Both the position numbers and the translations under genes were made by a program. From IMG/VR virus record IMGVR_UViG_3300022188_000229, positions 1 to 64,000 of that record: 64,000 nucleotides of DNA. The stretch is one strand, 5' to 3'. This document shows, one piece after another, positions 12,837 through 29,263 of the stretch. Under the pieces are notes generated by a model. That model was not told the DNA's origin and did not search any database. It saw nothing but the letters and a program-made list of their open reading frames with translations. Every line of letters begins with the position of its first letter. Within the stretch, counting starts at the first letter, position 1. This DNA comes from a virus.

Positions 12837-14071
12837 CTAAAAAAATAATTAAACTTAGCGCTACTAGAATAGGTTCTTACTTAAGATGTAAACGTAAGTA
12901 CTGGTTCAATTATGTAGAGCACATGCCCAAACTATCTAATCCGGCGTTTAAACTAGGATTGGCTTGTCATGAGTCTCTAGAGATAGCCGGTAAGATTTGG
13001 ATGGAAGAAGGCAGGCTGAGTAAGGCCGCCTATACAAAAATTTTCGCACACTATGATAAGATTTCTGTGAGAGAAGGTATTGAGGCGATGGAGGTACATG
13101 TTCAGGGAAAAGTGCTAGTAAAAAATAGACTAGATAACTTTGCACTAGGTACTAAAATCATCAGCCTTGAAGAAAAGTTTGGATTCGGCAAGGGGACTAA
13201 AGATATATCTACTACACTGGGCGTACCTCTAATTGGTGCAATGGATAAAGTAGTAGAGCTTGATCCAGACACTATAGTAGTGGTGGATTATAAAACTTCT
13301 AAAACTGCACCTACTTATGATCAATTGAAAGACGATTTACAGCTTTCTTTATATGATCTTGTAGCAGGTATTTTGTTTCCTCAGTATTCTAGAGTGATAC
13401 TTTGTTTAGATATGTTGAAATCAGAGCCGGTATATACTTATAGAACACCTTTTCAGCGAGAAGAATTTAATAGTTACTTATCAGTAATTCATGAAGAAAT
13501 GTCAGCACTTGTAGAGAAGGACGCTTATGCGTCATTGAATGTATTTTGTCCTTGGTGTGATTTTAAAGACTACTGCAAGGAATATAAGAAAGCAAGTTCG
13601 CAGACTAAATATGAATTTTTACCAGTATCCAAGATGACAGATGCTGATTTAATAGAAGAACATGAAAGAGTTAAAGGCGTGGCCAAGATACTTGACATGA
13701 GAAAACGTGATTTGGCAATGATTCTAATGGAGAAAATTAAAATTGCTGGTACTGATTTGAAGGGCGGGGATAATCAGATGTATATAAGACAGAGTGCCAG
13801 AACTAACTATGATGCCAAGGGTTTACATAAATTGATTCCACCCGATGAGTTCGCTACTATGGTATCATTGAATAAAAAAGCAGTAGATGCTTATTGTTCT
13901 AAACATCCTAAATTAAAGAAAGAAATTGAGAAGAATGCTACCACTAACTATACTTCTCCATTCTTGGCAGTTAAAAAAATTAAAGAACCAAAACCAGTAA
14001 AGAAAAAAGGAGCTACTAAAACTAATGGCAAAAAGAAAACTAAGCAAACAAGTAAAGCAAAAAAAGATTAA
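12833..14071 (+). CDS. Cas4/RecB-like PD-(D/E)XK nuclease with Fe-S cysteines
   Basis: The 412-residue protein has the RecB-family nuclease order: LSATRIGSYLRCKRKYWF, GLACHESLE (motif with His), GAMDKVVEL (catalytic Asp), VVDYKTSK (D-x-K), and DDLQLSLYDLV (Q-x3-Y). Cysteines in RCKRKYW and CPWCDFKDYC form the four-Cys Fe-S cluster signature of Cas4, AddB and Dna2. It probably resects or trims DNA ends with RecA/SSB. A Lys-rich tail (KPVKKKGATKTNGKKKTKQT) follows the fold. The last 47 nt overlap the first glycosyltransferase. Confidence 0.85.
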   Translation: MTKKIIKLSATRIGSYLRCKRKYWFNYVEHMPKLSNPAFKLGLACHESLEIAGKIWMEEGRLSKAAYTKIFAHYDKISVREGIEAMEVHVQGKVLVKNRLDNFALGTKIISLEEKFGFGKGTKDISTTLGVPLIGAMDKVVELDPDTIVVVDYKTSKTAPTYDQLKDDLQLSLYDLVAGILFPQYSRVILCLDMLKSEPVYTYRTPFQREEFNSYLSVIHEEMSALVEKDAYASLNVFCPWCDFKDYCKEYKKASSQTKYEFLPVSKMTDADLIEEHERVKGVAKILDMRKRDLAMILMEKIKIAGTDLKGGDNQMYIRQSARTNYDAKGLHKLIPPDEFATMVSLNKKAVDAYCSKHPKLKKEIEKNATTNYTSPFLAVKKIKEPKPVKKKGATKTNGKKKTKQTSKAKKD

Positions 14072-15332
14072 AGTATTAGCGTACTGCGACTCTCCAACCT
14101 GTGCAACAGGCTTTGGAACGGTGGCAAGGAATATTTTTGAGGCCCTACATAAAACAGGTCGGTATGAAATTGATATTCTAGGTATTAATTATTGGGGCGA
14201 CCCACACGGTTTACCTTACAGAATATGGCCAACAGGAATTAATGGAGATAAAGATCCTTATGGACGCAGAAAAGTGGCTGGTATGATACCACAGATGCAG
14301 TATGATATATTGTTTCTGTTACAGGACTCGTTTATATTGGATTTCATGCCTGCGCTATTTTCAAAATTAAAATCATCAGGCAAAGACTTCAAATCCATTT
14401 GTTATTTTCCTATAGATGGAAAACCTAAAGCGCAATGGATAGATAATGTTAATAACGCTGATGAGGTAGTAGCTTATTCACAGTTCGGGGCAGACGCAGC
14501 TAAGGCCGCTCAACCTGAGTGTAAAGATCTTCATATTATACCTCATGGAGCTAACGTCAATGATTTTAGACCCCTACCTGAGGGAGAAGTTAAAGCTTTT
14601 AGGAAACAATATTTTGGTAAGCATGCGGATAGTTTCATTGTCACTAATTTAAATAGAAATCAGCATAGGAAAGATATCCCACGGACTATTGCAGCGTTTA
14701 AAAAGTTTAGAGAGTCGGTTCCTGAATCGGTACTTTATTTACACATGGCTCCTAAAGATCAGGGTTGGGATTTGCCCGAAGTATGTAAAGCCTATGGGTT
14801 TAATATAGCTGAGGATGTAATATTCCCGGAGAACTTTGGCCCCAATCAAGGCTACCCGAGAGAAGTGGTAAATATGATCTATAATGCATCTGATTTGGTA
14901 GTAAGTACTACCCTTGGAGAAGGTTGGGGGTTGTCTTGGGTTGAAGCTATGGCAACTAGAACTCCTGTGCTTATGCCTAATAACACAGCAATAACTGAAA
15001 ATATTAGCGAAGATAGAGGCTATTTATGTAACAGTGGTACTAGTATAGGGCTAACAACTATATTGGCGAATGATAATGAAGTCATTAGACCTTTGGTCGA
15101 CGTAGAAGACATGGCTGAGAAGATGGTGCACATTTATAATAACTATGAAGAGGCTTTGGAGAAAGCAGATAAGGCATATAATTGGGTACATGAAAATTTA
15201 AATTGGCAAGGTAATGTTGGAAAGCAATGGGTTGACTTGTTTGATAAGGTATACGCTGACATGATTGAAGAGAAAATTAGTAGCCCCGATCATGATGCAA
15301 TAGGAAAAATGATTAAGGCTGAGACATTTTAG
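14025..15332 (+). CDS. Glycosyltransferase, GT4-like (GT-B fold)
   Basis: The 435-residue protein has a basic N-terminal leader, then KVLAYCDSPTCATGFGTVAR (sugar-acceptor Rossmann domain). The donor domain shows LNRNQHRKDIPRTIAAFKKF, VVSTTLGEGWGLSWVEAMA (EGWGLS..EA = the GT4 E-x7-E region) and TPVLMPN. It would transfer a sugar from a nucleotide donor to an unknown acceptor. First gene of the glycan cassette, translated from a start within the nuclease gene with an AAAGGAG site. Related in fold to the gene at 17114. Confidence 0.82.
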   Translation: MAKRKLSKQVKQKKIKVLAYCDSPTCATGFGTVARNIFEALHKTGRYEIDILGINYWGDPHGLPYRIWPTGINGDKDPYGRRKVAGMIPQMQYDILFLLQDSFILDFMPALFSKLKSSGKDFKSICYFPIDGKPKAQWIDNVNNADEVVAYSQFGADAAKAAQPECKDLHIIPHGANVNDFRPLPEGEVKAFRKQYFGKHADSFIVTNLNRNQHRKDIPRTIAAFKKFRESVPESVLYLHMAPKDQGWDLPEVCKAYGFNIAEDVIFPENFGPNQGYPREVVNMIYNASDLVVSTTLGEGWGLSWVEAMATRTPVLMPNNTAITENISEDRGYLCNSGTSIGLTTILANDNEVIRPLVDVEDMAEKMVHIYNNYEEALEKADKAYNWVHENLNWQGNVGKQWVDLFDKVYADMIEEKISSPDHDAIGKMIKAETF

Positions 15333-15333
15333 C

Positions 15334-15361
15334 TTGACAAATAAAAACTAATGTTTATATT
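15334..15361 (+). promoter_or_regulatory. Sigma-70-like phage promoter ahead of the palindrome island
   Basis: TTGACA 15334-15339, 16-nt spacer, TATATT 15356-15361. The start near 15368 would place the first structured element at the very 5' end of the transcript. Confidence 0.75.
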
Positions 15362-15377
15362 ATATATATGTTAGGAA

Positions 15378-15426
15378 AATAACGCCACAGTTCACCGGCT
15401 TTGTCCGGTGTAACTGATTGGTTATT
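15378..15426 (+). repeat. Palindromic structured element, copy 1
   Basis: A nested palindrome: AATAAC/GTTATT outer arms, CCA/TGG, GTT/AAC and CACCGG/CCGGTG inner stem closing a CTTTGT loop, with one bulged T. It lies in the 5' leader between the promoter and the AAGGAGG site of the 95-residue gene. Two more copies follow at 15810 and 16272. Confidence 0.85.
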
Positions 15427-15440: not shown

Positions 15441-15728
15441 ATGGAACAAAAACTTTTCCCATTTGAATGTAAATGTAGTGTTAAATTACGTAAGGCTGGT
15501 CTTTTTGAACTAAACATAAAAGGACTACCACATCCTACTGATCCAGAAGGAACGCATAGTATGATGACTACGGGTAGAACATTAGGCGAGGCTTTTTTTA
15601 ATATGGGTCATCACTTGACATTATCCTTTGAAGAACTGGCTCCTGGCCTTTTAGATTGGGCAGTTTGTGATGAACCTCGTCCTGAGCTAATTGAAAAGCT
15701 TCGTTTTCCGAATTGGCTTCAATTTTAA
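15441..15728 (+). CDS. Hypothetical 95-residue protein
   Basis: A small soluble protein with one CKC near the start and no known motif. Start behind AAAAAGGAGGTATT, an excellent ribosome site placed just after structured element copy 1. Its last 131 nt overlap, tail to tail, a minus-strand gene that also has a good ribosome site. Function unknown. Confidence 0.6.
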   Translation: MEQKLFPFECKCSVKLRKAGLFELNIKGLPHPTDPEGTHSMMTTGRTLGEAFFNMGHHLTLSFEELAPGLLDWAVCDEPRPELIEKLRFPNWLQF

Positions 15729-15783
15729 TAATATATTCAGGATGATTTTGATATTTTAAAGTAATTGTATATTTTTTGATCAT
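15598..15783 (-). CDS. Minus-strand 61-residue alpha/beta protein
   Basis: Reading on the complementary strand, AGGAGAACCTAAATG gives a proper ribosome site and start. The product (YTITLKYQNHPEYIIKIEA, then NSENEAFQLAQDEVH) looks like a genuine small beta-alpha-beta protein with amphipathic strands and a helix, not a random shadow frame. It overlaps the convergent + strand gene by 131 nt. It would be read from the minus-strand unit starting near 16040. One of only two minus-strand genes I accept in the window. Confidence 0.55.
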   Translation of the reverse strand: MIKKYTITLKYQNHPEYIIKIEANSENEAFQLAQDEVHHKLPNLKGQEPVLQRIMSSDDPY

Positions 15784-15809
15784 TTAGGTTCTCCTATCTG
15801 ATTAAAATT

Positions 15810-15858
15810 AATAATACCACAGTTCACCGGCTTTGTCCGGTGTAACTGATTGGTTATT
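15810..15858 (+). repeat. Palindromic structured element, copy 2
   Basis: Identical to copy 1 at 47 of 49 positions. One difference changes an outer C-G pair to T-G, which would still pair in RNA from the + strand. It sits between the two minus-strand reading frames and overlaps the stop of the zinc-ribbon frame. Confidence 0.85.
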
Positions 15859-16000
15859 TGGGTTTAGGATTTAAGTTGAGGGGTTTTGTATCTGTTTTAT
15901 GAAGTTCAAACGAACCGCAAAGAGGACAACGTTTCGTTTCAGTACATTCAAAAATGTGTTTACATTTTAAACAGGCATAAACTTTGTTTTTATTTTTAAT
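15854..16000 (-). CDS. Minus-strand zinc-ribbon protein, ATT start or decayed start
   Basis: On the complementary strand an open frame encodes 48 residues with two knuckles, CLKC and CPLCGS, a classic zinc ribbon. No ATG, GTG or TTG is in frame. The best start is ATT at 16000-15998, placed 6 nt after GAGGAC, exactly where ATG would be expected. Either it is a rare ATT start (as in infC) or a start codon lost by one substitution. An extended -10 (TGCTATAAT) lies 40 nt upstream. Reading frame is clear; expression is uncertain. Confidence 0.42.
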   Translation of the reverse strand: MKNKNKVYACLKCKHIFECTETKRCPLCGSFELHKTDTKPLNLNPKPK

Positions 16001-16270: not shown

Positions 16271-16271
16271 A

Positions 16272-16317
16272 AATAACGCCACAGTTCAGCGGTTTATCCG
16301 CTGTAACTTGTGGTTAT
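16272..16317 (+). repeat. Palindromic structured element, copy 3 (covarying)
   Basis: Same architecture as copies 1 and 2, but the inner stem is CAGCGG/CCGCTG instead of CACCGG/CCGGTG: both partners changed, keeping the pair. Outer arms ATAAC/GTTAT and CCA/TGG are kept; the loop is TTTAT. It ends directly before the GGAGG site of the next gene. Confidence 0.85.
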
Positions 16318-16331
16318 GGAGGAAGAACAGC

Positions 16332-16928
16332 ATGATTGAAGTGAATAAACTACATGAAAACCAAGGTAATTTTTTGGCGGCTTTAGTTGGTATGGGGTTA
16401 GCTTTTGATAAGACAGTTAAAGGGTTAGATAACGGAACTGATATTTTCTTTAGTGCTGATGGCACATATAATGATTTGTATTTTAAGATGTTAGATAGAG
16501 CTAAAAGGATGGCATTTAAGGGGATGGGCCATAATAAATTCCTTAGAGCGATACATGTAGATCTCATTGTGAAGGCTCCTTGTGATTGGTGGCAACAACA
16601 GGCCACGTATACTACTATCTCTGCGGTGCAGTCAACATCCACTATGCACATGTTGAAGAAATCAGGCTTTGATAATGGGGTAGATCCTTTAATGGATGAA
16701 GTTATTTTAAATAGATACAATGAACTACTTAAAGAGACTGATGACCTAATTAAATTGAAACGTAATCTACCAGCTGGTTATATGTATATAAGAACTATCC
16801 ACTTAAACTACATGAATTTACAGGCTATGGTTAATCAGCGAATTAATCACAAAGAACCGGAATGGCCAGAGTTTTGTGAGCAAGTACTAGCACAGATAAA
16901 CCATCCATATTTAGTGATGAAGGGGTAA
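16332..16928 (+). CDS. ThyX-like conserved phage protein (tentative)
   Basis: The 198-residue protein has the block FLRAIHVDLIVKAPCDWWQQ followed by ATYTTISAVQSTSTMHML. The pattern 'AP..WW.Q..TY......STMH' resembles a family of small phage and Firmicute proteins whose shape recalls flavin-dependent thymidylate synthase (ThyX), but the ThyX RHRxxS signature is not present. Start ATG at 16332 with GGAGG at 16318-16322; upstream in-frame codons fall inside structured element copy 3. If it were a thymidylate synthase it would pair with the dUTPase and dCMP deaminase, but this is weak. Confidence 0.5.
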   Translation: MIEVNKLHENQGNFLAALVGMGLAFDKTVKGLDNGTDIFFSADGTYNDLYFKMLDRAKRMAFKGMGHNKFLRAIHVDLIVKAPCDWWQQQATYTTISAVQSTSTMHMLKKSGFDNGVDPLMDEVILNRYNELLKETDDLIKLKRNLPAGYMYIRTIHLNYMNLQAMVNQRINHKEPEWPEFCEQVLAQINHPYLVMKG

Positions 16929-17113: not shown

Positions 17114-18235
17114 ATGGAGATAAAAGGAATTAAATATACAGGCCCGATTTTTGATAACTCAGGGTATGCTAAGGCATGTAGAGGTAATATACTTGCTTTG
17201 CATCATGCAGGGGTGCCTATTACTTTAAACCCCATAACATTCGAACAGGCGCATCCAAATTTAGGTGAAAATGCTGAGCTTTTAAAAAGTTTAGTAAATA
17301 AATCTGTAGATTATAACGTTAATTTAATGCATACTACACCAGAGTTCTGGTCTAAGCATAAAGAATCCACATCATGTAATGTTGGTTATACTATTTGGGA
17401 GACTACTAAGCTACACAAAGATTGGCCCGGGTACATAAATTCCAACGTTGAGAAAGTATTGGTAGGGTGTGAGTGGAACAAAGGCATCTTTAAAGATAGT
17501 GGTGTAACTGTTCCTATTGGGGTGGTTCCCCATGGCACTAGTGCGAAGGAATTTGATAACGTAACCCCCTTCCAAATTGCTGGTGTTAAAGACACCGACT
17601 TTGTGTTCTATAGTATTTTTCAGTGGACAGAGCGTAAGTGCCCCTTGGCTTTGTTAAAGGCTTATTACCATGCTTTTCAGAATAATGAAGATGTAGTACT
17701 GGTCTTGAAAGCTTACGGTAATGACTACAGTACAAAACAAAAAGAGTCCGTAGTCAATGCTATTAAATATTTGAAATATAATATGCCTATGCCGCACTTT
17801 CCTAAGATAGTTCTTATTGGGGATATGATATCTGAGGACGAGATGGCCTCTATTCACGCAAGAGGGGATTGTTATGCTTCTTTAGATAGAGGTGAAGGCT
17901 TCGGACTTAGCCCGTTTACTGCTGGAGCAGCCGGAAACCCTATTATAGTTACAGGTTTTGGAGGATCAACTGAGTATGCTAAAGAAGATAATAGTTATTT
18001 GGTGGATTATCAATTAACACCTGTCTACGGAATGCCGTGGAGTCCCTGGTATGATGGTACTCAGTTATGGGCCGAACCTAATGTCGTAGATGGTAGTAAT
18101 AAAATGAGATATGTATATGCAAATAGAGAAGAAGCAAAGGTTAAAGGATTAAAACTACAGGATAGTATAACTAAGAACTTTTCTTGGGAAGCTATAGCTG
18201 ATAGAATTATTACTGAGATAAGGGAGATCAATTAA
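17114..18235 (+). CDS. Glycosyltransferase, GT4-like
   Basis: The 373-residue GT-B type enzyme has an acceptor domain with FDNSGYAKACRGN and NVGYTIWETTKLHKDWP. The donor domain has VFYSIFQWTERKCPLALLKA and YASLDRGEGFGLSPFTAGAAG (EGFGL, the GT4 donor-binding signature). NPIIVTGFGGSTEYA follows. Its 3' end overlaps the methyltransferase-like gene by one base. It probably adds a sugar to the glycan built by this cassette. Confidence 0.78.
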   Translation: MEIKGIKYTGPIFDNSGYAKACRGNILALHHAGVPITLNPITFEQAHPNLGENAELLKSLVNKSVDYNVNLMHTTPEFWSKHKESTSCNVGYTIWETTKLHKDWPGYINSNVEKVLVGCEWNKGIFKDSGVTVPIGVVPHGTSAKEFDNVTPFQIAGVKDTDFVFYSIFQWTERKCPLALLKAYYHAFQNNEDVVLVLKAYGNDYSTKQKESVVNAIKYLKYNMPMPHFPKIVLIGDMISEDEMASIHARGDCYASLDRGEGFGLSPFTAGAAGNPIIVTGFGGSTEYAKEDNSYLVDYQLTPVYGMPWSPWYDGTQLWAEPNVVDGSNKMRYVYANREEAKVKGLKLQDSITKNFSWEAIADRIITEIREIN

Positions 18236-18729
18236 TGAAGAAGAAGACACTTAATATAGGAGCGGGAGAGCGCACTTATACCTACTATCCTACTAATAAT
18301 TATGAATGTATTAATTTTGATGAGCGTAAGTTGAAGACTACCGATGTTGTAGGGGATGTTAGAGTATTAGATATGTTTGAAGATGAAGAATTTGATTTCA
18401 TTCTAGCCAGTGATATTATAGAACACTTCCCTATTAAAGAAGTGCAAGATATACTAAAAGAGTGGGGTCGAGTACTCAAAGCCTCAGGAATGATAGAATT
18501 TAGATTACCTAATTTAACTGCAATCTGTGTCCAATACATTAATGAAAAAAATGCTCGGAATGTGAGTTGGTTATTGTATGGGGGACAGGATTACTCTGGC
18601 AACTTTCACTACACTTGCTATGATAGAGTTCTCTTTAAAGAAGAGCTTATTAAAGCAGGTTTGGAGGAAGTTACTTACAGTGAAGAAGGTTATAATATGG
18701 TAGTTAGAGTTAGGAAAGGGGAAAAATAA
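18235..18729 (+). CDS. SAM-dependent methyltransferase-like protein (class I)
   Basis: The short (164-residue) Rossmann protein has LNIGAGERTY at motif I, YECINFDERKL at motif II, EFDFILASDIIEHFP at motif IV, and WGRVLKASGMIEFRLPN. This is the usual pattern of small class I methyltransferases found in polysaccharide clusters. Likely substrate: a sugar of the phage-made glycan. The start codon overlaps the preceding stop (TAATG), and the next gene follows immediately, so the trio is co-translated. Confidence 0.72.
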   Translation: MKKKTLNIGAGERTYTYYPTNNYECINFDERKLKTTDVVGDVRVLDMFEDEEFDFILASDIIEHFPIKEVQDILKEWGRVLKASGMIEFRLPNLTAICVQYINEKNARNVSWLLYGGQDYSGNFHYTCYDRVLFKEELIKAGLEEVTYSEEGYNMVVRVRKGEK

Positions 18730-19485
18730 ATGAAAACAATAACATTTCCGGTCGGCTATAGACCACAGTATTTAGAACAGTTTTTAACCTGCTTAGAGAA
18801 ACAGAATTTGGAGGGGTACACTATATTTTGTAGTGCTGAGGATTCTCCAGAATGTATCCAAATACTACAGAATTCTAAATTAGCTTTGAATATTTTATAT
18901 AAGAAGAATTCAAGTGGGAAACGAAATCATTCGGGAGCAAAAGATAATATGTTTAACGTGCTCAATGCCGCCTTTGAAGCAGGGTCTACCTTTAATCTAC
19001 ATTTGGAAGATGATTTTTTATTAGCCCCCGATGCAGTAGATTTAGCTAATTGGTATTATACTAATTTTAAAGATAAACCCATTACATATATGTCATATGG
19101 TATGTTCGGATTTAATCCTAGAGGCCTCGACCCCTCTGCTTTAGAAGAAGTACCTTTTTTTGAAGGGCTTGGTTGGTGTACATTTAAAGAGGGCTGGGAG
19201 ACATGCTATAAGCAAGCATGGTACGATATTAAACTAGCTAAAAAATATTTTGGTTCAAGCCACGGTTGGGATTGGTCAGTGCAGGCTTTCTTTAAAGAGT
19301 ATGGGTATAAAGCACTTCGTCCTCTTATTAATAGAACCCAACATAACGGACGTATGGGGGGAACTTGTTGTACGGTACGCCATCATGATAAACATTATGT
19401 ACCATTAAAATGGAACACAACCGAGCGCATATTAGAATTTAATTTAATAGGCACTTCTAAAGAAACAGCAGAGTGGATAAAATGA
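18730..19485 (+). CDS. Glycosyltransferase, GT-A fold (GT2/GNT-I-like)
   Basis: In the 251-residue protein, FNLHLEDDFLLAPDAVD carries the acidic E-D-D metal and nucleotide-sugar site, as in GNT-I type and GT2 enzymes. AKDNMFNVLNAAFEAG precedes it, and GSSHGWDWSVQAFFKEYG lies at the catalytic/acceptor region. A His-rich segment (RHHDKHY) follows. It overlaps the 2-epimerase by 4 nt (ATGA). Confidence 0.72.
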   Translation: MKTITFPVGYRPQYLEQFLTCLEKQNLEGYTIFCSAEDSPECIQILQNSKLALNILYKKNSSGKRNHSGAKDNMFNVLNAAFEAGSTFNLHLEDDFLLAPDAVDLANWYYTNFKDKPITYMSYGMFGFNPRGLDPSALEEVPFFEGLGWCTFKEGWETCYKQAWYDIKLAKKYFGSSHGWDWSVQAFFKEYGYKALRPLINRTQHNGRMGGTCCTVRHHDKHYVPLKWNTTERILEFNLIGTSKETAEWIK

Positions 19486-20549
19486 AAATACTTACTATAA
19501 TTGGTACTAGGCCTGAGCTGATAAGATTGAGTGTACTAATTAAAAAACTAGATAAATTAGTGGATCATGTGTTTGTATATACTAATCAGAATTATGACTA
19601 TTCTTTAAGTGGCAAATTTTTTAAAGAGCTGAAGATTAGAAAGCCAGATTATTATTTTAGTAATGAAGGTAATTCTATTGGTAATTTTTTATCAAACGCT
19701 ATTCTTCAATTTGAAGAGGTTCTTCTTAAAGAAAAACCAGATAAATTACTAGTGTTGGGTGATACTAATTCAGGTTTGCTGGCTATAATAGCAGAAAAAT
19801 ATAATATTCCTGTATATCATATGGAAGCAGGTAATAGATGCTATGATAATAGGCTACCAGAAGAAATGAATAGGCGTATTATAGATCATGTGTCTGCGTA
19901 TAATTTACCTTATACGGAGGGTAGTAAACAGAATTTATTGACCGAGGGGTTTCATAAGAACTACGTTTTTAAAACAGGCAATCCTATATATGAAGTTCTG
20001 TTGTATTACACTAAGGAGATAAATGATAGTAAAATTTTACAGAAACTATCTCTGAAAACTGAGGACTTTGTTCTAGTAACCACACATAGAACAGAGAATG
20101 TAGACGACCCTACCTCTTTACTAGGTATAATTAATGCCTTGAATGAAATTTCAAAACAATATAAGGTTATAATTTCTTTACACCCAAGGACAAAAGATAA
20201 ATTAAATAAGTTTGGGATATCTGTGGCTGATAATATTACTATGTTAGCGCCACTTGGATTTTTTGACTTTGTAAAATTAGAACAATCAGCAAAACTAGTT
20301 ATCAGTGACTCTGGGACTTGCCAAGAAGAGTGTTGTATTTATAATGTACCCTCTATAACAATAAGAGAAAGTACCGAAAGACAAGAAACCATAGAGTGTG
20401 GATCAAACGTGCTATCAGGAACAAATACTGAGCAAATTGTACGTATATTTAATACACTGTTAAACAGACCGTATGAATGGGCACCACCAAAGGACTACAT
20501 GAAGAAGAATGTATCTGATACAGTTGTAAATATATTGTTAGGAAAATAA
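19482..20549 (+). CDS. wecB: UDP-N-acetylglucosamine 2-epimerase (WecB-like)
   Basis: The 355-residue enzyme has the full family pattern: ILTIIGTRPELIRLS at the N-terminus, KLLVLGDTNSGLLAIIA, YHMEAGNRCYDNRLPEEMNR, LVTTHRTENVDDP, IISLHPRT and SDSGTCQEECCIYNVPSITIR. It inverts C2 of a UDP-N-acetyl-hexosamine. I use the ATG at 19482 (ATGA overlap) rather than the in-frame GTG at 19473. With the dehydratase at 26957 and the reductase at 27961 it would complete a UDP-L-FucNAc- or L-QuiNAc-type pathway. Confidence 0.88.
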   Translation: MKILTIIGTRPELIRLSVLIKKLDKLVDHVFVYTNQNYDYSLSGKFFKELKIRKPDYYFSNEGNSIGNFLSNAILQFEEVLLKEKPDKLLVLGDTNSGLLAIIAEKYNIPVYHMEAGNRCYDNRLPEEMNRRIIDHVSAYNLPYTEGSKQNLLTEGFHKNYVFKTGNPIYEVLLYYTKEINDSKILQKLSLKTEDFVLVTTHRTENVDDPTSLLGIINALNEISKQYKVIISLHPRTKDKLNKFGISVADNITMLAPLGFFDFVKLEQSAKLVISDSGTCQEECCIYNVPSITIRESTERQETIECGSNVLSGTNTEQIVRIFNTLLNRPYEWAPPKDYMKKNVSDTVVNILLGK

Positions 20550-20570: not shown

Positions 20571-21140
20571 ATGATACTTGAGGATATGGATTTCACAGAT
20601 TTTTTTAAACACATTTCAGAGATTTTTTCAGGGTATTTCTCAAATAAAGAGACCGACATGCTGATGGGATTTGTTGATGTGTTATCTGACGCAAATTTTC
20701 GTTGTTACAAAGCTAATATGATTGTGATTAAGTCTAGAAAAGCACACGAGGATAATTATAAACTAGTTTCAGATATGGAGTGGGTAGCTAGAAGTGTAGG
20801 GGAGTATAGAGTTTCTTCTAAAGCTAGAATTAACTTGTATATCTCTAAAATAAGAGCTCAAAGCATAAGAACTAACTCAGCTACTTGGGTAAGTGATGAT
20901 GTAGTTTATAGTATAGGTGAGATGATGGATAGGTTATCAATAGAGACTATTAAAAGGGAAGACTTCTTTAAGAATAATAGACCAGACCACATGAGACGAG
21001 CCTCTCAGGACATTAGTGATAGGGTAGAGAAGTATTTAAGGGTTAAGCTAAAAGAGATAGATAGGAAAGGTTTCTACGAGTGTATACACGAGCAGAGAAC
21101 TTATGATCTTGAAGGTATAGTGCAAGAATTGGCGATATAA
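20571..21140 (+). CDS. Hypothetical protein within glycan cassette
   Basis: The 189-residue, largely helical and charged protein has no transferase or Rossmann motif that I recognise. Ribosome site GGGAG. It is followed directly by a GT32-like gene. It could be a structural or scaffold partner, or simply a phage gene embedded in the cassette. Confidence 0.5.
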   Translation: MILEDMDFTDFFKHISEIFSGYFSNKETDMLMGFVDVLSDANFRCYKANMIVIKSRKAHEDNYKLVSDMEWVARSVGEYRVSSKARINLYISKIRAQSIRTNSATWVSDDVVYSIGEMMDRLSIETIKREDFFKNNRPDHMRRASQDISDRVEKYLRVKLKEIDRKGFYECIHEQRTYDLEGIVQELAI

Positions 21141-21974
21141 ATGGATCTTATACCTAAAATATTACATACTTATTGGGACGGTAGCAACATGTCTCAGTTA
21201 CAAATGTTCACAGTGACTACGTTTCATAGACAAAACCCTGATTGGGAAATAAATGTGTATACAGCTAAACAAGATTATACAGGCAGAGCTCAGTATATAC
21301 CTGACTACAAAGGACAGAACTATTTTGATCTAGTAAAACAACTTGCTTATGTAAATATAGTTACAGTGGACTTAGATGACTATGGTATATTGCATAATCT
21401 ACATGGTATACTACGATCAGACATATTTAGGTACCATGTACTCTATAATATTGGCGGGGTTTGGTCTGATTTTGATGTAATATGGCTCAAACCAATGGAA
21501 CATTTTAATAACATTAAATATCATGGAGAAGCATCTATCAAAGAAGCTAACGCTATAGTTTCTTTTATGAAGGGTACTTACGGTGGCCATAGTATTGGTA
21601 TTATGATACACGCTAAACATGATCCATACGTTTTATCTTTGATTGAAGCCACTAAAAAAATTAAGCCTCCATATACACATGAAGTATTCGGTGGCGACAT
21701 GATTAACAAATACTACCCTACGTTAACTTCTTTATCTAACTACGGTAATGTTATTGGAGCGAGATTTGAAACTTATTATCCCTACAACATACACCCACCA
21801 AATGTTACCATACAAAAATTATATTCCGGTGTAGATTTAAATTGTATAAATAATAATGTTATGTGCGTGCATTGGTATAATGGACGTAAAGAGAGTAAGC
21901 ACTATGTTAATAATAATGGTTTTGAAAGAAATTGTAGTATGACTACAATATTAAAAAACGAGGGGTGTATATAA
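21141..21974 (+). CDS. Glycosyltransferase with DXD motif (GT32-like)
   Basis: The 277-residue protein begins IPKILHTYWDGSNM, the standard opening of capsular/mannosyl GT32-type 'sugar-binding DXD' enzymes. It contains GILRSDIFRYHVLYNIGGVW followed by SDFDVIWLKP, where the DXD metal site sits. GGHSIGIMIHAK and VHWYNG near the end match the family. The protein at 22739 is a paralogue, so one gene probably arose from the other by duplication. Confidence 0.78.
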   Translation: MDLIPKILHTYWDGSNMSQLQMFTVTTFHRQNPDWEINVYTAKQDYTGRAQYIPDYKGQNYFDLVKQLAYVNIVTVDLDDYGILHNLHGILRSDIFRYHVLYNIGGVWSDFDVIWLKPMEHFNNIKYHGEASIKEANAIVSFMKGTYGGHSIGIMIHAKHDPYVLSLIEATKKIKPPYTHEVFGGDMINKYYPTLTSLSNYGNVIGARFETYYPYNIHPPNVTIQKLYSGVDLNCINNNVMCVHWYNGRKESKHYVNNNGFERNCSMTTILKNEGCI

Positions 21975-22739
21975 ATGAAAGTTTCTATTATAATACCATC
22001 ATATAAGAGGTGCCATCTACTTAAATGGGGACTATGGTCCTTGGCTAGGCAAAAATTTCCTTTTGAATTTGAAACAATACTTTTAAATGATGGGCTTTTA
22101 GATAATACTGAAAGTCTTGGGGAACAAAATAAAGAAAGACTTAATTTAAAGTATGTTTTTACTGGCCAAAGAAATATAAATGGGGCTTCTTTGTGGAGAG
22201 TGCCTGGGTTTGCATTAAATATCGGGGCAAAGCAAAGTACCGGTGATATTATTGTGTTTTGTTGTGCTGAGATGTTTCATTTAAATAATACTATAGAATT
22301 ACTTACTTCTATATACAGTTCTTCAGGAAATGAAAAAATATTAGCAATGCCTAAAGCTAAGGATGATAGTGGGGAGTTTCTGAAACATGTTGAAGCCACA
22401 GGCGGAGCAACAAGTATTGAAGTGTATAATAAACAGCCCTCACTTATTAACGTGAGATTTCCCTTCTTTTTAGCCATGATGAAGCAAGAATTTATGGCCA
22501 TAGGAGGTTATGATGAGGATTTTACTGGGACAGACTACGATGATGAGGATTTAGTAATGAGACTGTTGGATAATGGGTGCTCTCATGTTGAAACTAATGC
22601 GTTGGCTATACATTTATGGCACCCACGTCTAGCTATGACACGTGAAAGAATACCTAGGTTCAATCATAATAAAAAATTATTTGAACAACGTCGTGGTATT
22701 ATAACTAGAAATGAAGGAAGGGAGTGGGGAGTGCTTTAA
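21975..22739 (+). CDS. Glycosyltransferase family 2
   Basis: The 254-residue GT-A enzyme opens with VSIIIPSYKRCHLLKWGLWS and has ETILLNDG, GAKQSTGDIIVFCCAEMF (the usual DxD is replaced by C-A-E) and GGYDEDFTGTDYDDEDLVMR (acceptor/catalytic ED loop). The WH-x-R end is typical. The change at the DxD position is unusual and could alter metal use. The 3' stop overlaps the next start by one base. Confidence 0.8.
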   Translation: MKVSIIIPSYKRCHLLKWGLWSLARQKFPFEFETILLNDGLLDNTESLGEQNKERLNLKYVFTGQRNINGASLWRVPGFALNIGAKQSTGDIIVFCCAEMFHLNNTIELLTSIYSSSGNEKILAMPKAKDDSGEFLKHVEATGGATSIEVYNKQPSLINVRFPFFLAMMKQEFMAIGGYDEDFTGTDYDDEDLVMRLLDNGCSHVETNALAIHLWHPRLAMTRERIPRFNHNKKLFEQRRGIITRNEGREWGVL

Positions 22740-23578
22740 TGGTAAAAGATATATATTTTTATTGGGGAAATAGTACTATGTCATATATGCGTTATATGAC
22801 GCTACATTCTTTTAAAACACATAACCCAGACTGGACTATATATTTGATTAAGAATAGCCAAGAAACTAATAGAGATTTAACTGAGACTGTAGAGAAACAA
22901 GATAAAACTGAATACACTGGTAAAGATTATTCATATTTAATAGATGATTTGAACATAAATATTGTGGAATTCGGAAATGATTTTATAGATTTGGATGATG
23001 CTGTTGTAGCGTCTATGTCAGATGTACACATTAAAGATATTCTGAATTGGAAATTATTAGCAGAACAAGGCGGCATAGTTGCTGATATGGATATACTATT
23101 TACTACCCCAATAGGTGATTCTATACAAGACTCTGTTGAATTAGGACTAATTTGTTTTGATAACAATCCTCAGAAAGATTATATTCCAGTGAGTTTTATG
23201 TACAGCTCAGGAAAGAATGAGTTTTTTAAAAAGACCTATGAGAATGCTCTTAGAAACTATAATCCTAGTATCTACGAGAGTTGTGGTACTATGTGTATAG
23301 AAGAGAATAATTTAAATGAGATTAAAGGTAACTATCTTAATATGGGTATCCAAGAACTAGCTGATGGGGTAGTATTTCCATTTATAGCTGTACCTTGGAT
23401 GAAAGGAATAAATATGTTGTACGATACTGATTGTACTAGTTTGATGGATTCTAATTCTGTAGGAATACATTGGTATGGCGGAGCGCCACAGTCACAAAAA
23501 TATAATAATATAATAAACGATAAAACAGTACATGAAATTAATAATACAATCTCTGTGAATATAAGGAAAATAATTTAA
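22739..23578 (+). CDS. Glycosyltransferase with DXD motif, paralogue of 21141 gene
   Basis: The 279-residue protein has IYFYWGNSTMSYMRYMTLHS at the N-terminus, mirroring the 21141 gene, then ILNWKLLAEQGGIVADMDIL with the D-M-D metal site and GIHWYGG at the C-terminus. Start ATG at 22739 (TAATG overlap with GT2) is preferred to an upstream in-frame GTG. Probably adds a different sugar to the same glycan. Confidence 0.72.
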   Translation: MVKDIYFYWGNSTMSYMRYMTLHSFKTHNPDWTIYLIKNSQETNRDLTETVEKQDKTEYTGKDYSYLIDDLNINIVEFGNDFIDLDDAVVASMSDVHIKDILNWKLLAEQGGIVADMDILFTTPIGDSIQDSVELGLICFDNNPQKDYIPVSFMYSSGKNEFFKKTYENALRNYNPSIYESCGTMCIEENNLNEIKGNYLNMGIQELADGVVFPFIAVPWMKGINMLYDTDCTSLMDSNSVGIHWYGGAPQSQKYNNIINDKTVHEINNTISVNIRKII

Positions 23579-24882: not shown

Positions 24883-25497
24883 ATGACAATGAGCCCAGAT
24901 TTTACTAACTATTATGATATTATTTTTGATTATGTTACAGAAGGCCCAGTATTAATTTACGGTGTACATAAAAATGTAGCAGAAAATCAAATGCCAGAAA
25001 AATACCAAGGAGTAACTGATTTTTCAGATTGGTTTAAAAAAAGAAATATAGATGCTTATACTTTAGATTTGTTTGACAAAGAAGCTAGTTATAATTTTGA
25101 TCTCAATGATCCAGTACCTGTGGGACAACTTAAGAGGTATAATGCTGTTATAGATATAGGTACAATAGAGCATATATTTGATGTGAAACAAGTACTACAT
25201 AATAGTTTTGGTATGGTGAAAGAGAATGGTTATTACATACTACAGACTACTGCTAATGGATTATACGAACATGGATTTTATGCTTTTGGTCCTGAACTAA
25301 TTCAATCAACTCTACGTAGTAATGGTTTTGATGTATTGTATTTTAAAACCAGTAATCTCACAGGAGTAGAGACTAATTTTTCAGATGTTTTTGCTCCAAT
25401 GCAGCCAAGTATGGTTATGTGGGTTGTAGCTAAAAGAGTTAAAGTATTGGAAAAGTTTGTAAATCCACAACAAGATCAGTGGAAAAATTTATATTAA
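24883..25497 (+). CDS. SAM-methyltransferase-like protein
   Basis: The 204-residue protein has YNAVIDIGTIEHIFDVKQVL at motif IV and then MVKENGYYILQTTANG, followed by GFYAFGPELIQSTL, which matches methyltransferases of glycan and phage clusters. A clean motif I glycine loop is not visible (LIYGVHKNVAE). Ribosome site AAAGGAGATATACAG. Sits between the sulfotransferase and a GT2 gene. Function as a sugar O-methyltransferase is inferred. Confidence 0.55.
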   Translation: MTMSPDFTNYYDIIFDYVTEGPVLIYGVHKNVAENQMPEKYQGVTDFSDWFKKRNIDAYTLDLFDKEASYNFDLNDPVPVGQLKRYNAVIDIGTIEHIFDVKQVLHNSFGMVKENGYYILQTTANGLYEHGFYAFGPELIQSTLRSNGFDVLYFKTSNLTGVETNFSDVFAPMQPSMVMWVVAKRVKVLEKFVNPQQDQWKNLY

Positions 25498-25512: not shown

Positions 25513-26268
25513 ATGGAAAGAGTATCAATATTTAATTGTGTATCATCAGCATATGAAATGTTAAAATTTTCATCTGATGCTATAATACAAAATGCAGGTT
25601 ACGACAACTATGATTACATAGTAGTAACATGGGGGCCAACACCAGAAGTATCTGAATATTTAGATGAGTTAAAAAAGAAACATGATTTTGTTCATATTAT
25701 CGATTATAAAACTAATAAAGATGTGCCATATGTACCAAATTTAAGAGGCATGATGAATACTGGTTTTGATTATGGATTTGAATTGAATGACTACTGCGGA
25801 CTAACTAATACTGATCAGTACTTTGGAAAAGATTGGTTATTAAATTTAGTTAAATACGCTAATCCCACTGATATAGTTAACGCAACTTCCATTTGTCCAG
25901 TAGATTGGCCAAGTCACATTAATATTAATCTAGGAATTCCTGAGTATGGTAAATTTAATTTAGAAAAATTTAATCAATTATATGACGAATTATATGAAGA
26001 TAAAATTCAAACTGAAGAAGAACGAGGTGGCAGAAGAGCTACTAATACTATGCCCTATCTAATTCCAAAAAAATTCTGGGAAGAAGCAGGTCCTTGGGAA
26101 TTAAGGGTAAGTCCTGGAGATAGCCCGGATGTAAAATTTTTTCAAAGATGTAAAAAAGCAGGAGCACATTTTACTATGAGTCGTTCTTCAATAGTGTATC
26201 ATCATGAAGCAGTAGAAAGACGTAGTGGTCAAAGACCAGATGATGCAAAAGATATGAGTGAAGAATGA
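25513..26268 (+). CDS. Glycosyltransferase family 2-like
   Basis: The 251-residue GT-A-like protein has VSIFNCVSSAYEMLKF and DYIVVTWGPTPEV at the N-terminus, LTNTDQYFGKDWL in place of the DxD strand, and a C-terminal GDSPDVKFFQRCKKAGAHF acceptor loop ending YHHEAVERR. It overlaps the following homing-endonuclease gene by 4 nt (ATGA). Confidence 0.68.
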   Translation: MERVSIFNCVSSAYEMLKFSSDAIIQNAGYDNYDYIVVTWGPTPEVSEYLDELKKKHDFVHIIDYKTNKDVPYVPNLRGMMNTGFDYGFELNDYCGLTNTDQYFGKDWLLNLVKYANPTDIVNATSICPVDWPSHININLGIPEYGKFNLEKFNQLYDELYEDKIQTEEERGGRRATNTMPYLIPKKFWEEAGPWELRVSPGDSPDVKFFQRCKKAGAHFTMSRSSIVYHHEAVERRSGQRPDDAKDMSEE

Positions 26269-26963
26269 TAAGTAATAGTATCAAATTTAGTGATGTCATT
26301 AAAAAATTAGCAGTAAAAGATTATTTATCAGACATGAGTTGCAGAGAAGTAGGTAGAAAATATAAAGCCCATCATAGAACTATTGGACGATGGGTATTAA
26401 AAGCTGGATATAAATTAAGAACTAGAAAAGAGACAGAAATTTTATCTGGCAGAAAGATGAAAGGTATTAGAAGAAGTCCTGGTAGTGAATTTAAGAAAGG
26501 AGACCCTCCTTGGAATAAAGATACAAAAGGGATAATGAAACCTAACAAAACTTCTTTTAAGAAAGGAGTACATTATTCAATAACTACAGAATTTAAAAAG
26601 GGAATGCCTACATGGAATAAGAATATCCCATGTTCTGAAGATACTAAAAAGAAAATAAGTGAAGCTTTAAAAGGTAAATTGTTAGGTAGTAAAAATCCAA
26701 ATTGGCTAGGTGGGCCGAAAGATTATGGAAAAGAATTTAATTTTGTTTTAAAAGAAATAATAAGAAGTAGAGATAACTATAAATGTAGGGTATGTGAAAA
26801 GACTCAAAAAGAAAATAAAAGAAGACTCAGTTGTCATCACATAGATTATAACAAGAAAAATTGTAAAGAAAATAATTTAATTAGTTTATGTGACTCATGC
26901 CATATGACAACTAATTTTAATCGAGAATACTGGGAAAAGTATTTAAAGGAGATATTATGTTAA
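26265..26963 (+). CDS. Free-standing HNH homing endonuclease with HTH and NUMOD-type motifs
   Basis: The 232-residue protein has an N-terminal helix-turn-helix (CREVGRKYKAHHRTIGRWVL), repeated FKKG..PWNK segments, NUMOD3-like KKISEALKGK and GSKNPNWLGG motifs, and a C-terminal HNH core with CRVC, LSCHHIDYNKKNCKENNL and CDSC. This is a typical phage mobile endonuclease that spreads itself into a cognate site. It overlaps both neighbours by a few bases, so it sits neatly between the GT2 and dehydratase genes. Its HNH core is related to that at 52345. Confidence 0.85.
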   Translation: MISNSIKFSDVIKKLAVKDYLSDMSCREVGRKYKAHHRTIGRWVLKAGYKLRTRKETEILSGRKMKGIRRSPGSEFKKGDPPWNKDTKGIMKPNKTSFKKGVHYSITTEFKKGMPTWNKNIPCSEDTKKKISEALKGKLLGSKNPNWLGGPKDYGKEFNFVLKEIIRSRDNYKCRVCEKTQKENKRRLSCHHIDYNKKNCKENNLISLCDSCHMTTNFNREYWEKYLKEILC

Positions 26964-27964
26964 AGAATTCAATATTTACTGGGGAAGTGGTCCTTTTGAC
27001 AGGGGGTACCGGATCATGGGCTCATGAACTAACAAAACAACTACTTGACAAAGATCCAAAGATGATTATATTAATATCTAGAGGTGAATTGGCTCAAGTT
27101 ATGACAGCTAGAAAATTTAACAATGACCCAAGACTTAAGTTTATAATTTGTGATGTAAGAGATACTGCTGCAGTAGATAGAGTACTTAGTACAGGGGTGG
27201 ATTATGTATTTCATATGGCAGCATTAAAGCATGTACCTGTATGTGAGGACCAACCACAAGAAGCTATTAAAACCAACATAGATGGTACAATGAATATTAT
27301 TAACTCTGCTATTAGACATAAGGTGAAGAAAGTTATTGATGTGTCAACAGATAAAGCAGTTTCACCTACTAATTTATATGGTTTTACAAAAGCAGTAGGG
27401 GAAAAGTTAATAATTCAAGCCAATACTTTGTCAGATGACACTGAGTTTGTTTGTATTAGGGGTGGTAATGTTCTTGGTTCTAATGGTAGTGTAGTACCTT
27501 TATTTATAGATCAGATAAAAGAGTTTAATAAAATAACAGTTACTGATGAATCAATGACTAGATTTTTTCTTACACTGCCAGAAGCTATAACTTTATTGTT
27601 TCAGGCTACAGAATATAGTACAGGCGGAGAAACATTCGTTATGAATATGCCAGCCTTCTATATAGGGGATTTAGCTAAGGTAATGATTAGACACTATGGG
27701 GATGAAAACACTTCAATAGATGTAATAGGTTTGAGACCAGGAGAAAAAGTCCATGAAGAGTTAATTTCTGAACATGAATCTCATAGGTCGCACATCTTTA
27801 ATGAGGACTACTATGTGATATTACCTGAAATTGCTATGGGAAAAGACTATGCTGATTTAAAAGCCATGGATAAAGTAAAGTTTGATAGTTTTTCTTCATC
27901 TGACAATGTGAAAGGACAAAGGTATTTAACAGATTTGCTTAATAATGGGGGCTTTTTAATATGA
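26957..27964 (+). CDS. UDP-GlcNAc 4,6-dehydratase (CapE/WbjB/FlaA1-like)
   Basis: The 335-residue extended SDR enzyme has VVLLTGGTGSWAHEL (NAD(P) loop), CDVRDTAAVDRVLS, FHMAALKHVPVCEDQPQEAIKTNIDG split over two blocks, and VSTDKAVSPTNLYGFTKAVG. In this family STDKA with downstream K forms the catalytic region (the Tyr of YxxxK is replaced in 5-inverting dehydratases). RPGEKVHEELIS is present. It would form a 4-keto-6-deoxy UDP-sugar. Ribosome site AAAGGAGATATT. Confidence 0.85.
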   Translation: MLKNSIFTGEVVLLTGGTGSWAHELTKQLLDKDPKMIILISRGELAQVMTARKFNNDPRLKFIICDVRDTAAVDRVLSTGVDYVFHMAALKHVPVCEDQPQEAIKTNIDGTMNIINSAIRHKVKKVIDVSTDKAVSPTNLYGFTKAVGEKLIIQANTLSDDTEFVCIRGGNVLGSNGSVVPLFIDQIKEFNKITVTDESMTRFFLTLPEAITLLFQATEYSTGGETFVMNMPAFYIGDLAKVMIRHYGDENTSIDVIGLRPGEKVHEELISEHESHRSHIFNEDYYVILPEIAMGKDYADLKAMDKVKFDSFSSSDNVKGQRYLTDLLNNGGFLI

Positions 27965-28779
27965 GAATTTTTGTTTTTGGAAGAAATGGTATGTTAGGTA
28001 ACTACGTATACTCTTATTTTAAATTGAACACATCATACGATGTTATAGGTATTACTCGAAAGGATATCGACCTGTCCCGTGTATCTAACTTTAAGTTACT
28101 AGAAGGTCAGTTTAGTCCTGAAGATGTGATTATAAATTGTGTTGGGGTTATAAAGCAACGGAATAACGCAGAAGATATGGAGTTTATTGTAGTAAACTCA
28201 GTTCTTCCACATTATTTAAACAACGTTTGTAAAAATATTAGAGCTAAGTTTATTAATATTTCAACAGACTGTGTGTTTACAGGGGCAGATGGAGGTTACG
28301 ACGAGGAATCTGCTCACGATGCGTCAGATATATATGGAAGAACCAAGTCTTTGGGTGAGCCTGTGGATGCTACTACTATTCGAACATCAATAATAGGGGA
28401 AGAGCTAAGCAATTTTTGTTCCTTGATCGAATGGGTTAAAAGTAATAAAGATAAAAATGTGTTAGGATATACTAATCATTTCTGGAATGGAATAACCTGT
28501 CTTCAGTTTGCAAAGATATGTGAATACATGATAGATAATTCTTTTTATTGGGAAGGCGTCAGACATATTAATTCTCCTAGTGTTGTTTCAAAATGTGATT
28601 TGGTTAAATTAATATCTGACACTTATGACTTGAACATTGAGGTTACCCCTCATACTGCACAGACATACTGTGATAGGTCGTTGTCGTCCATTAAAGAGAA
28701 ATTTCCAATAGATATTCCAGAGTTAGTTGTTCAAATCGAGGAGCAGAAAAAGTTTTATGGGAGACACTATGGACTTTAG
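27961..28779 (+). CDS. RmlD-like nucleotide-sugar 4-keto reductase
   Basis: The 272-residue SDR protein has IFVFGRNGMLGNYVYSYF, INCVGVIKQR, NSVLPHYLNNVC, FINISTDCVFTGADGGYDEE and IYGRTKSLGEP (Y-x3-K). This is the dTDP-4-dehydrorhamnose-reductase/WbvR/CapF type N-terminal domain. The overlap of 4 nt with the dehydratase gene (ATGA) supports a common pathway: dehydration at C4/C6, then reduction of the 4-keto sugar. The 2-epimerase at 19482 would complete the set. Confidence 0.83.
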   Translation: MRIFVFGRNGMLGNYVYSYFKLNTSYDVIGITRKDIDLSRVSNFKLLEGQFSPEDVIINCVGVIKQRNNAEDMEFIVVNSVLPHYLNNVCKNIRAKFINISTDCVFTGADGGYDEESAHDASDIYGRTKSLGEPVDATTIRTSIIGEELSNFCSLIEWVKSNKDKNVLGYTNHFWNGITCLQFAKICEYMIDNSFYWEGVRHINSPSVVSKCDLVKLISDTYDLNIEVTPHTAQTYCDRSLSSIKEKFPIDIPELVVQIEEQKKFYGRHYGL

Positions 28780-29263
28780 TAAAATTGATATAATTGTTAG
28801 CGAAATTGATGGTATTTTAACTGATGGATTCAAACCAATAGATAATATGAATTTGTGCTTATTTAAGAACTACTGTGAGAAAGATTTTGAAGCCATTAAC
28901 GAATTAAAGCGATTCTTTACAGTAGTATTCCTTGCTTCAGACTCAGATGTTAGTTATAATGTGATGAGGACTAGAAATATACCTGCTTATTTTATTACAT
29001 CTAAGGAAACTAAACTAGATATACTCACTAGAAAGATAATGCCTCGTTATAATATGCGTCCTGAAAATTTATTATATATAGGTAATAAACTATCAGATGT
29101 CCCTTGTATGAACTACGCTGAGTATAGCTTTACAATACCGGCTTCAGCCAATAGAGTGGTTTGTGCAGCCAACGGATCAATTGCTGGAGCATCTGGGAAG
29201 GGCATCATGACCAAGTTGTGTGAGGTTTTACTTCCTGAGATAGAAAAAAGAACAAGAAAATAA
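28769..29263 (+). CDS. KdsC-like HAD-superfamily protein with altered nucleophile
   Basis: The 164-residue protein has the KdsC layout: SKIDIIVSEIDGILTDG (motif I), VVFLASDSD (motif II), SKETKLDIL (motif III Lys) and NLLYIGNKLSDVPCM (motif IV). In motif I the first Asp of DxD, which normally forms the phospho-enzyme, is Glu (SEIDG). Phosphatase activity may therefore be reduced or lost. Start ATG at 28769 with GGGAG just upstream fits the domain start; ATG at 28757 is an alternative. Last gene of the glycan cassette, followed by the next promoter. Confidence 0.75.
   Translation: MDFSKIDIIVSEIDGILTDGFKPIDNMNLCLFKNYCEKDFEAINELKRFFTVVFLASDSDVSYNVMRTRNIPAYFITSKETKLDILTRKIMPRYNMRPENLLYIGNKLSDVPCMNYAEYSFTIPASANRVVCAANGSIAGASGKGIMTKLCEVLLPEIEKRTRK

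Follow-up and report, generated by a model that had tools for sequence, protein, structure and literature searches.

The first 64 kb of a 92,895-base uncultivated virus record (IMGVR_UViG_3300022188_000229; this 64,000-nucleotide stretch is called the window here) carry a glycan-biosynthesis cassette that sits at a fixed slot in this phage and in 17 relatives. Three non-homologous sugar pathways and a near-empty form share that one slot, and the variable block has been exchanged between related phages, a pattern that looks like serotype-style cassette switching. We interpret the cassette as an exchangeable glycan-biosynthesis locus of a large tailed-phage lineage, its glycan most likely placed on a virion protein and varying like a serotype, and give this reading a probability of about 0.52.

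One slot, several sugar pathways

Relatives were gathered by clamp-loader and HAD scans followed by whole-locus retrieval, which gave 17 further distinct phages on contigs of up to 238 kb, so that the comparison with related phages proposed in an earlier note on this DNA yielded a slot that is fixed and contents that are exchanged. W denotes the window, and the relatives are A (L009), B (L010), C (L011), E (L013), F (L054), G (L055), H (L056), I (L057/L058), J (L059), K (L060/L061), M (L062), N (L063), P (L064), Q (L065), R (L066), T (L067), and U (L068). The frame runs from a Cas4-like nuclease through a glycosyltransferase (GT) gene, GT4a, a ThyX or thymidylate synthase (TS) position that is not always filled, a second glycosyltransferase gene, GT4b, and usually a methyltransferase to the variable block, and then to a HAD protein and the clamp loader. 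GT4a and GT4b are kept in all 18 phages, and the nuclease, HAD protein, and clamp loader in nearly all.

Four phages (W, C, G, and P) have a type I block, in which a dehydratase and a reductase accompany a 2-epimerase, the set for a UDP-L-N-acetylhexosamine (UDP-L-HexNAc). Type II, with a Gfo/Idh dehydrogenase, hexapeptide acyltransferases, a DegT aminotransferase, and GT2 enzymes, is found in eight (A, B, E, F, I, J, K, and Q) and in partial form in H, and type III, with a PfkB kinase, a cytidylyltransferase-like enzyme, a GT9 heptosyltransferase-like enzyme, and a PIG-L deacetylase, in two (R and U); the block is nearly empty in M, N, and T. Sulfotransferase-family genes occur in eight phages (W, A, E, G, J, K, P, and R; those of K and P by homology to W). 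The dehydratase is confined to the locus, in the four type I phages, and among the related phages only M has GT2-family matches outside the locus.

Exchange is most evident where frame and contents disagree. Phage A is the closest relative of W by frame (73-90% identity) and has zero variable genes in common with it, whereas most cassette enzymes of W are 51-71% identical to those of P, with which the Cas4-like nuclease, GT4b, the HAD protein, and the clamp loader (DnaX) share only 37-48% and GT4a 60%. In the clamp-loader tree a single clade is rejected by the approximately unbiased (AU) test both for type I (AU 6e-23) and for type II (AU 1e-129); the cassette types are scattered almost as in shuffles, and the empty type forms one clade. 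The partner of W also differs between trees, being C on the dehydratase tree (99%) and A on the clamp-loader tree (100/99).

Intein-like inserts are found in several cassette genes: in GT4a open reading frames of 806-1001 aa (L056, L057, L060, L066, and L067), in GT4b (L010:5272-7464, L059, L056, L057, and L060), in the dehydratase of L011 (696 aa), and in the reductase of L055 (697 aa). In these cases the protein that hosts the insert is seen to be interrupted, both in split matches and in alignments; glycosyltransferases and nucleotide-sugar enzymes are an unusual home for inteins. Elsewhere in the window, a ribonucleotide reductase (RNR) of 1246 aa (32805-36545) is about 400 aa longer than that of A, with an insert that ends in HN-C and is a probable intein. 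Together with homing-type HNH genes, the intein-like inserts of the locus could promote block exchange.

Genes of the cassette

Functions were called outright where a protein scored over curated Pfam or NCBIfam cut-offs; weaker calls were backed by PHROG families, homology, or AlphaFold models searched with Foldseek. The locus and its flanks in the window are as follows.

12833..14071, + strand: Cas4/RecB-like nuclease, left anchor; function read from sequence; 43-90% identity in 15 relatives, same place
14025..15332, + strand: GT4a glycosyltransferase, conserved core; PF00534 8.6e-10, over cut-off; phrog_2170 5.7e-55; 52-85% identity in 17/17 relatives
15333..15364, + strand: promoter CTTGACAA...TATATTATA, directly after GT4a
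16308..16928, + strand: ThyX-like protein (phrog_6721) between GT4a and GT4b; likely start 16332; RHR motif absent in alignment
17114..18235, + strand: GT4b glycosyltransferase, conserved core; PF13692 1.1e-5, below cut-off; phrog_2170 4.2e-23; 46-77% identity in 17/17 relatives
18235..18729, + strand: methyltransferase, left border of the variable block; PF08241 1.5e-8, over cut-off; cluster 6, in 12/18 phages
18730..19485, + strand: putative GT-A glycosyltransferase with a GNT-I-like motif, tentative; GNT-I Pfam 12.5 bits, below cut-off; 65-79% identity in G and C
19473..20549, + strand: WecB-type UDP-HexNAc 2-epimerase; PF02350 (Epimerase_2) 1.8e-92; NCBIfam wecB equivalog 263.7 against a cut-off of 210
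20571..21140, + strand: function-unassigned 189-aa protein tied to type I cassettes; without Pfam family; 61-69% identity in C, G, and P only
21141..21974, + strand: GT32-type glycosyltransferase; PF04488 (Gly_transf_sug) 9.6e-10, over cut-off
21975..22739, + strand: GT2 glycosyltransferase; PF00535 2.8e-8, over cut-off
22724..23578, + strand: GT32/Caps_synth-like glycosyltransferase; PF05704 4.9e-4, below cut-off; homologous to the GT32 of phage C
23579..24208, + strand: methyltransferase; phrog_3382 3e-37, no Pfam family over cut-off; 64% identity to phage P
24224..24868, + strand: sulfotransferase with motifs for binding 3'-phosphoadenosine 5'-phosphosulfate (PAPS); PF00685 6.3e-17, over cut-off
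24883..25497, + strand: methyltransferase-like, weak call; PF13489 0.0044, below cut-off; 65% identity to phage P
25513..26268, + strand: GT2-like (GT-A fold) glycosyltransferase; Pfam GT2 only 0.022; call from AlphaFold model
26265..26963, + strand: HNH/NUMOD3 homing-type endonuclease within the cassette; NUMOD3 0.0023 and HNH 0.012, both below cut-off; paralogues in many relatives
26957..27964, + strand: UDP-GlcNAc 4,6-dehydratase/5-epimerase (FnlA/PseB/CapE type); PF02719 (Polysacc_synt_2) 6.2e-97; PDB matches FlaA1/WbjB/CapE at <=1e-72
27961..28779, + strand: RmlD-type SDR reductase (WbvR/Mg535 type); PF04321 (RmlD_sub_bind) 2.6e-18; PDB RmlD matches 4e-15
28769..29263, + strand: KdsC-like HAD protein with Glu replacing the nucleophile Asp, right anchor; TIGR01670 2.6e-9, below cut-off
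29264..29295, + strand: promoter CTTGACAA...TATATTATA, in the same place before the clamp-loader gene in phage C
29330..30388, + strand: clamp-loader (DnaX-like) gene, right flank; tblastn matches to phage clamp loaders; 38-82% identity in relatives

The sugar-building set spans about 14 kb of co-oriented, tightly packed genes with intact reading frames, and eight of them (starting at 14025, 18235, 19473, 21141, 21975, 24224, 26957, and 27961) are over Pfam cut-offs, 19473 over an NCBIfam cut-off as well. The earlier note had described a cassette of several glycosyltransferases with its own donor-sugar pathway, a sulfotransferase, and methyltransferases. Every gene that it listed is present, most of its weaker calls hold, and Pfam, NCBIfam, and PHROG matches support the description, with GT4, GT32, and GT2 enzymes over Pfam cut-offs. 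Overlooked there were the ThyX-like gene (16308-16928), the HNH endonuclease (26265-26963), the KdsC-like HAD gene (28769-29263), and the 189-aa protein at 20571. For its GNT-I-like gene at 18730, the gene and the motif stretch LEDDFLLAPDA, which we take to resemble a GNT-I metal site, are there, but the Pfam score is low, a profile search of PDB sequences gave no match, and the predicted fold was too poor for use; the assignment as GNT-I or a GT-A enzyme is thus a tentative guess. The run of genes had also been placed between two promoters, both of which are real, but the stretch between them is 15441-29263, and GT4a (14025-15332) lies upstream of the first. The promoter motif, CTTGACAA-N15..22-TATATTATA, has 7 copies in the window and 0 in shuffles. 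Just after the first cassette promoter, a 29-nt hairpin, CACAGTTCACCGGCTTTGTCCGGTGTAAC, is repeated at 15386-15414 and 15818-15846, with a variant near 16276 (z -3.3); none was seen in the fetched loci.

Profiles of 22724 and 25513 found no match among PDB sequences; the AlphaFold model of 25513 (pLDDT 78, pTM 0.80) leads by Foldseek to the GT-A enzymes K4CP and ppGalNAc-T, with a best E value of 7e-10. The PDB profile matches of the sulfotransferase are Teg14/TEG12 and tyrosine sulfotransferases, and tblastn detected no homologue of it among about 50,000 phage records. A tblastn search of phages with the methyltransferase at 18235 likewise gave no match, nor did the whole cassette as a nucleotide query against 50,697 phage records. 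In the Synechococcus phage S-EIVl (L016), a gene annotated as sulfate adenylyltransferase shares a genome region with a GT4a homologue, which suggests a possible phage supply of activated sulfate. None of the cassette proteins of the window has a transmembrane-like segment by a hydropathy threshold, and therefore no flippase, polymerase, or ligase is encoded there, which agrees with the earlier note as regards flippase and polymerase.

The donor sugar

The catalytic residues T131, D132, K133, and Y141 of the dehydratase (26957) are invariant, the reductase (27961) keeps YxxxK, and the 2-epimerase (19473) has the active-site D, E, E, and H in its motifs GDTNS, HMEAGNR, LPEEMNR, and THRTEN. No cupin domain was found in the reductase, which is therefore closer to the WbvR/Mg535 layout than to the CapF type. 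In Vibrio the same trio of enzymes makes UDP-N-acetyl-L-rhamnosamine (UDP-L-RhaNAc) and then UDP-N-acetyl-L-quinovosamine (UDP-L-QuiNAc), and the FnlABC route gives UDP-N-acetyl-L-fucosamine (UDP-L-FucNAc). In Megavirus, a dehydratase, a reductase, and a 2-epimerase make UDP-L-RhaNAc and then UDP-L-QuiNAc for the sugars of the virion fibrils (PMC9614988). We infer that the trio of the window forms a UDP-L-HexNAc pathway of this kind, the product being L-QuiNAc, L-RhaNAc, or L-FucNAc. A pseudaminic-acid pathway was considered and ruled out: PseC- and PseH-type genes are absent, and a 2-epimerase and an RmlD-type reductase are present. Dehydratase-reductase pairs also occur in dozens more IMG/VR viral contigs (L073-L118), mostly without the anchors of this lineage, where their neighbors are GT2, GT25, GT8, or GT32 genes.

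Conserved oddities and genomic setting

Two features of the frame are odd. In all 17 HAD members aligned (the window and 16 relatives), Glu stands at the position of the KdsC nucleophile Asp, which makes the protein a probable pseudo-phosphatase that would act in structure or regulation. Between GT4a and GT4b, in turn, there is usually a gene of thymidylate-synthase type: ThyX-like without the RHR motif in W, a canonical RHR-motif ThyX in M, T, and P, ThyA (with a dUMP-type LPFN motif) followed by dihydrofolate reductase (DHFR) in N, and a divergent TS in E, J, and U. The position is vacant in Q, R, and G, and Q has a ThyX far away. ThyX-like relatives in F and B exceed the PF02511 cut-off; comparing the profile of the ThyX-like group directly with that of ThyX was unsuccessful, though single members pass the Pfam ThyX cut-off. 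Supply of dTMP in a replication region is the simplest reading of this gene.

The window also encodes, as judged from its letters, RecA, a DnaB-like helicase, primase, SSB, the Cas4-like nuclease, the clamp loader, a PolA-type polymerase, dUTPase, and RNR, as well as what looks like a multi-PAS-domain phage protein (45065-47209) and a response-regulator-like protein (49392-49775). Because RecA, DnaB-like, primase, SSB, clamp-loader, polymerase, and RNR genes surround it, we place the cassette inside the replication region. The GC content of the window is about 35%, and no tRNA genes were found in its 64 kb. A search for hosts with GT4a against GTDB genomes gave two weak matches only (31% and 28% identity). 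Membership in the 'moraphage' lineage, which has core glycosyltransferases (PMC12619734), was not adopted, since moraphages have PolB and the present phage, from its reading frames and homologue matches, a PolA-type polymerase.

What the glycan may be attached to

In the mechanism we propose, GT4a, GT4b, and the methyltransferase at the left border would probably build or initiate a common core, and the block between that methyltransferase and the pseudo-HAD protein would make a special nucleotide sugar and extend and decorate the chain. In the present phage, the dehydratase, reductase, and 2-epimerase would convert UDP-GlcNAc to a UDP-2-acetamido-2,6-dideoxy-L-hexose (L-RhaNAc/L-QuiNAc or L-FucNAc), GT32, GT2, and other GT-A enzymes would add the sugars, and methylation and sulfation would follow. 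Recombination in the conserved flanks would swap the whole block for other chemistries. Attachment would most likely take place in the cytoplasm, on a virion protein that has yet to be assembled, and such a serotype-like coat could conceal the particle, imitate the surface sugars of the host, or alter adhesion.

A virion protein is our best guess for the acceptor, on which we would wager about evenly. A soluble acceptor seems the better guess for a cassette without membrane-type proteins, and the nearest cultured-phage homologues of GT4a point in the same direction: its profile matches, among the closest such homologues, the head-module GT4 proteins of S-CBS4 (7e-66; portal-GT4-GT-methyltransferase-protease-major capsid protein) and phiPsal1 (1e-21; major capsid protein-GT4-methyltransferase-GT2-neck). 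The methyltransferase and second glycosyltransferase of these trios have no detectable homology to those of the cassette. The virion is favored further because mycobacteriophage virions are glycosylated (as cited in PMC12619734) and because the Megavirus trio serves virion fibrils (PMC9614988). A sheath-like protein of the window (49908-51722), assigned to a tail sheath family by its PHROG match (3.9e-63), has the highest Ser/Thr content (24%), lies in a GC-raised stretch (42%), and was a candidate acceptor; as evidence for the acceptor it was rejected, its Ser/Thr richness being too weak.

A more specific form of the idea, to which we give somewhat less than an even chance, is a true serotype locus for the phage's own particles, in which initiating glycosyltransferases and flanks are conserved, complete pathways for donor sugar and decoration, whether of the L-HexNAc, diamino-uronate-like, or heptose-like kind or lacking altogether, and frequently with a sulfotransferase among them, are exchanged wholesale, and virions would show swappable bacterial-type glycans.

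Several observations weigh against a virion glycan built from an L-HexNAc. The locus lies among replication genes, away from virion genes; base modification, too, would suit the thymidylate-synthase-type gene that usually separates GT4a from GT4b; other homologues of GT4a/GT4b are found near primase (S-EIVl), terminase (TJE1), or RNR (Streptomyces phages); the dehydratase misses the NCBIfam equivalog cut-offs of FnlA (231/730 bits) and PseB (299.5/407.75); and similar clusters have been read as host-surface modifiers by the authors who published them (PMC7824862, PMC7029224).

Remodelling of the host envelope, as those cyanophage and pelagimyophage authors favor, is the alternative that survives best, though we consider it unlikely; the enzymes would then act during infection on host O-antigen or capsule intermediates, using the carrier lipid and flippase of the host, and so block superinfection. 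O-antigens and lipopolysaccharide (LPS) typically draw on L-HexNAc and heptose-type donors, and type III cassettes have GT9 heptosyltransferase-like enzymes, but the window cassette has no membrane-bound enzyme and the closest relatives of GT4a sit in head modules. Less likely again is DNA hypermodification, in which the adjacent TS/ThyX-like enzyme would make a modified base, GT4a and GT4b would glycosylate it, and the base glycan would come from the cassette. The replication setting and the ThyX-like, ThyX, ThyA, or divergent TS gene beside them in most relatives would suit it, and glycosylation of phage DNA with diverse glycans has been reported (Pyle 2024, as cited in PMC12619734). However, the canonical genes at that position are dTMP makers (ThyA with DHFR in N, RHR-motif ThyX in M, T, and P), and the position is vacant in Q, R, and G; a Tet/JBP (Tet_JBP) search gave no match, its positive control being equally silent. 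That most of the block is passenger or stuffer DNA of bacterial origin, with no function, an idea raised by Sullivan et al. for cyanophage LPS clusters (PMC3037559), is very improbable given catalytic residues that are kept, intact reading frames, packed and promoter-driven genes, core enzymes conserved in all relatives, and intein-like inserts in core glycosyltransferases, usually a mark of important genes.

Comparison with known systems

Cyanophages and pelagimyophages are already known to have large glycan clusters, and modules of type I occur in many other IMG/VR contigs. The earlier note's word 'exceptional' was therefore overstated, as P-SSM2, S-SSM7, and pelagimyophages carry comparable clusters (PMC3037559, PMC7824862, PMC7029224) and FnlA-RmlD modules are found in dozens of IMG/VR contigs. 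What appears new, and was not found described in the literature searched, is a fixed slot with whole pathways swapped, sulfation included, across a lineage. With three pathways and an empty form, the 18 phages are a comparative set in which to ask whether such glycans go to virions, DNA, or the host surface and what they protect against, and the pathways, including the sulfotransferase, are a source of glycan-tailoring enzymes.

The LPS clusters of cyanophages P-SSM2 and S-SSM7 and the capsular clusters of jumbo cyanophages resemble the present locus in being polymorphic sets of 10-20 genes with epimerases, PfkB kinases, nucleotidyltransferases, and many glycosyltransferases (PMC3037559, PMC7824862). 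These cyanophage clusters belong to T4-like phages of photosynthetic hosts and lie near hli, phoH, and tRNAs, and the text consulted mentions no conserved GT4a-GT4b-HAD frame (PMC3037559, PMC7824862). A search for the gp23 capsid family (PF07068) gave no match in 13 records, which are fragments, and its control was silent; a terminase family search was likewise uninformative. The host recognition cluster of pelagimyophages is likewise a hypervariable island of glycosyltransferases at a fixed place (PMC7029224), but it is a GT8-dominated island with tail fibres in the structural region, between VrlC and gp14, whereas the present locus lies between a Cas4-like nuclease and the clamp loader and PolA genes.

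O-antigen and capsule serotype loci of bacteria have fixed flanks, exchangeable central sugar and glycosyltransferase genes, and methyl and sulfate or acetyl decoration, as here; the present locus differs in being phage-borne and, in the window cassette, in having no Wzx, Wzy, ligase, or other membrane protein. Phage serotype conversion (gtrABC/oac) uses a membrane flippase and a polytopic glucosyl- or acetyltransferase, whereas no protein of the window cassette exceeds the hydropathy threshold. Actinobacteriophages that glycosylate their virions have, to our knowledge, few glycosyltransferases only and no encoded donor pathway; they are alike in that phage glycosyltransferases modify virion proteins (mycobacteriophage capsid and tail tube, as cited in PMC12619734). 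The clade-specific glycogene clusters of Mimiviridae (Megavirus chilensis mg534-536) combine the same three-enzyme UDP-L-RhaNAc/QuiNAc logic with glycosyltransferases and methyl- and sulfate-transferring enzymes, and their sugar set varies between related viruses (PMC9614988). Those are eukaryotic giant viruses whose virion fibril sugars were shown chemically, and their clusters are clade-specific, whereas the phage types are scattered within one lineage at one slot. If our reading is correct, the serotype-like behavior of this one locus would show that phages, like bacteria and giant viruses, vary their surface chemistry through the replacement of entire sugar pathways.

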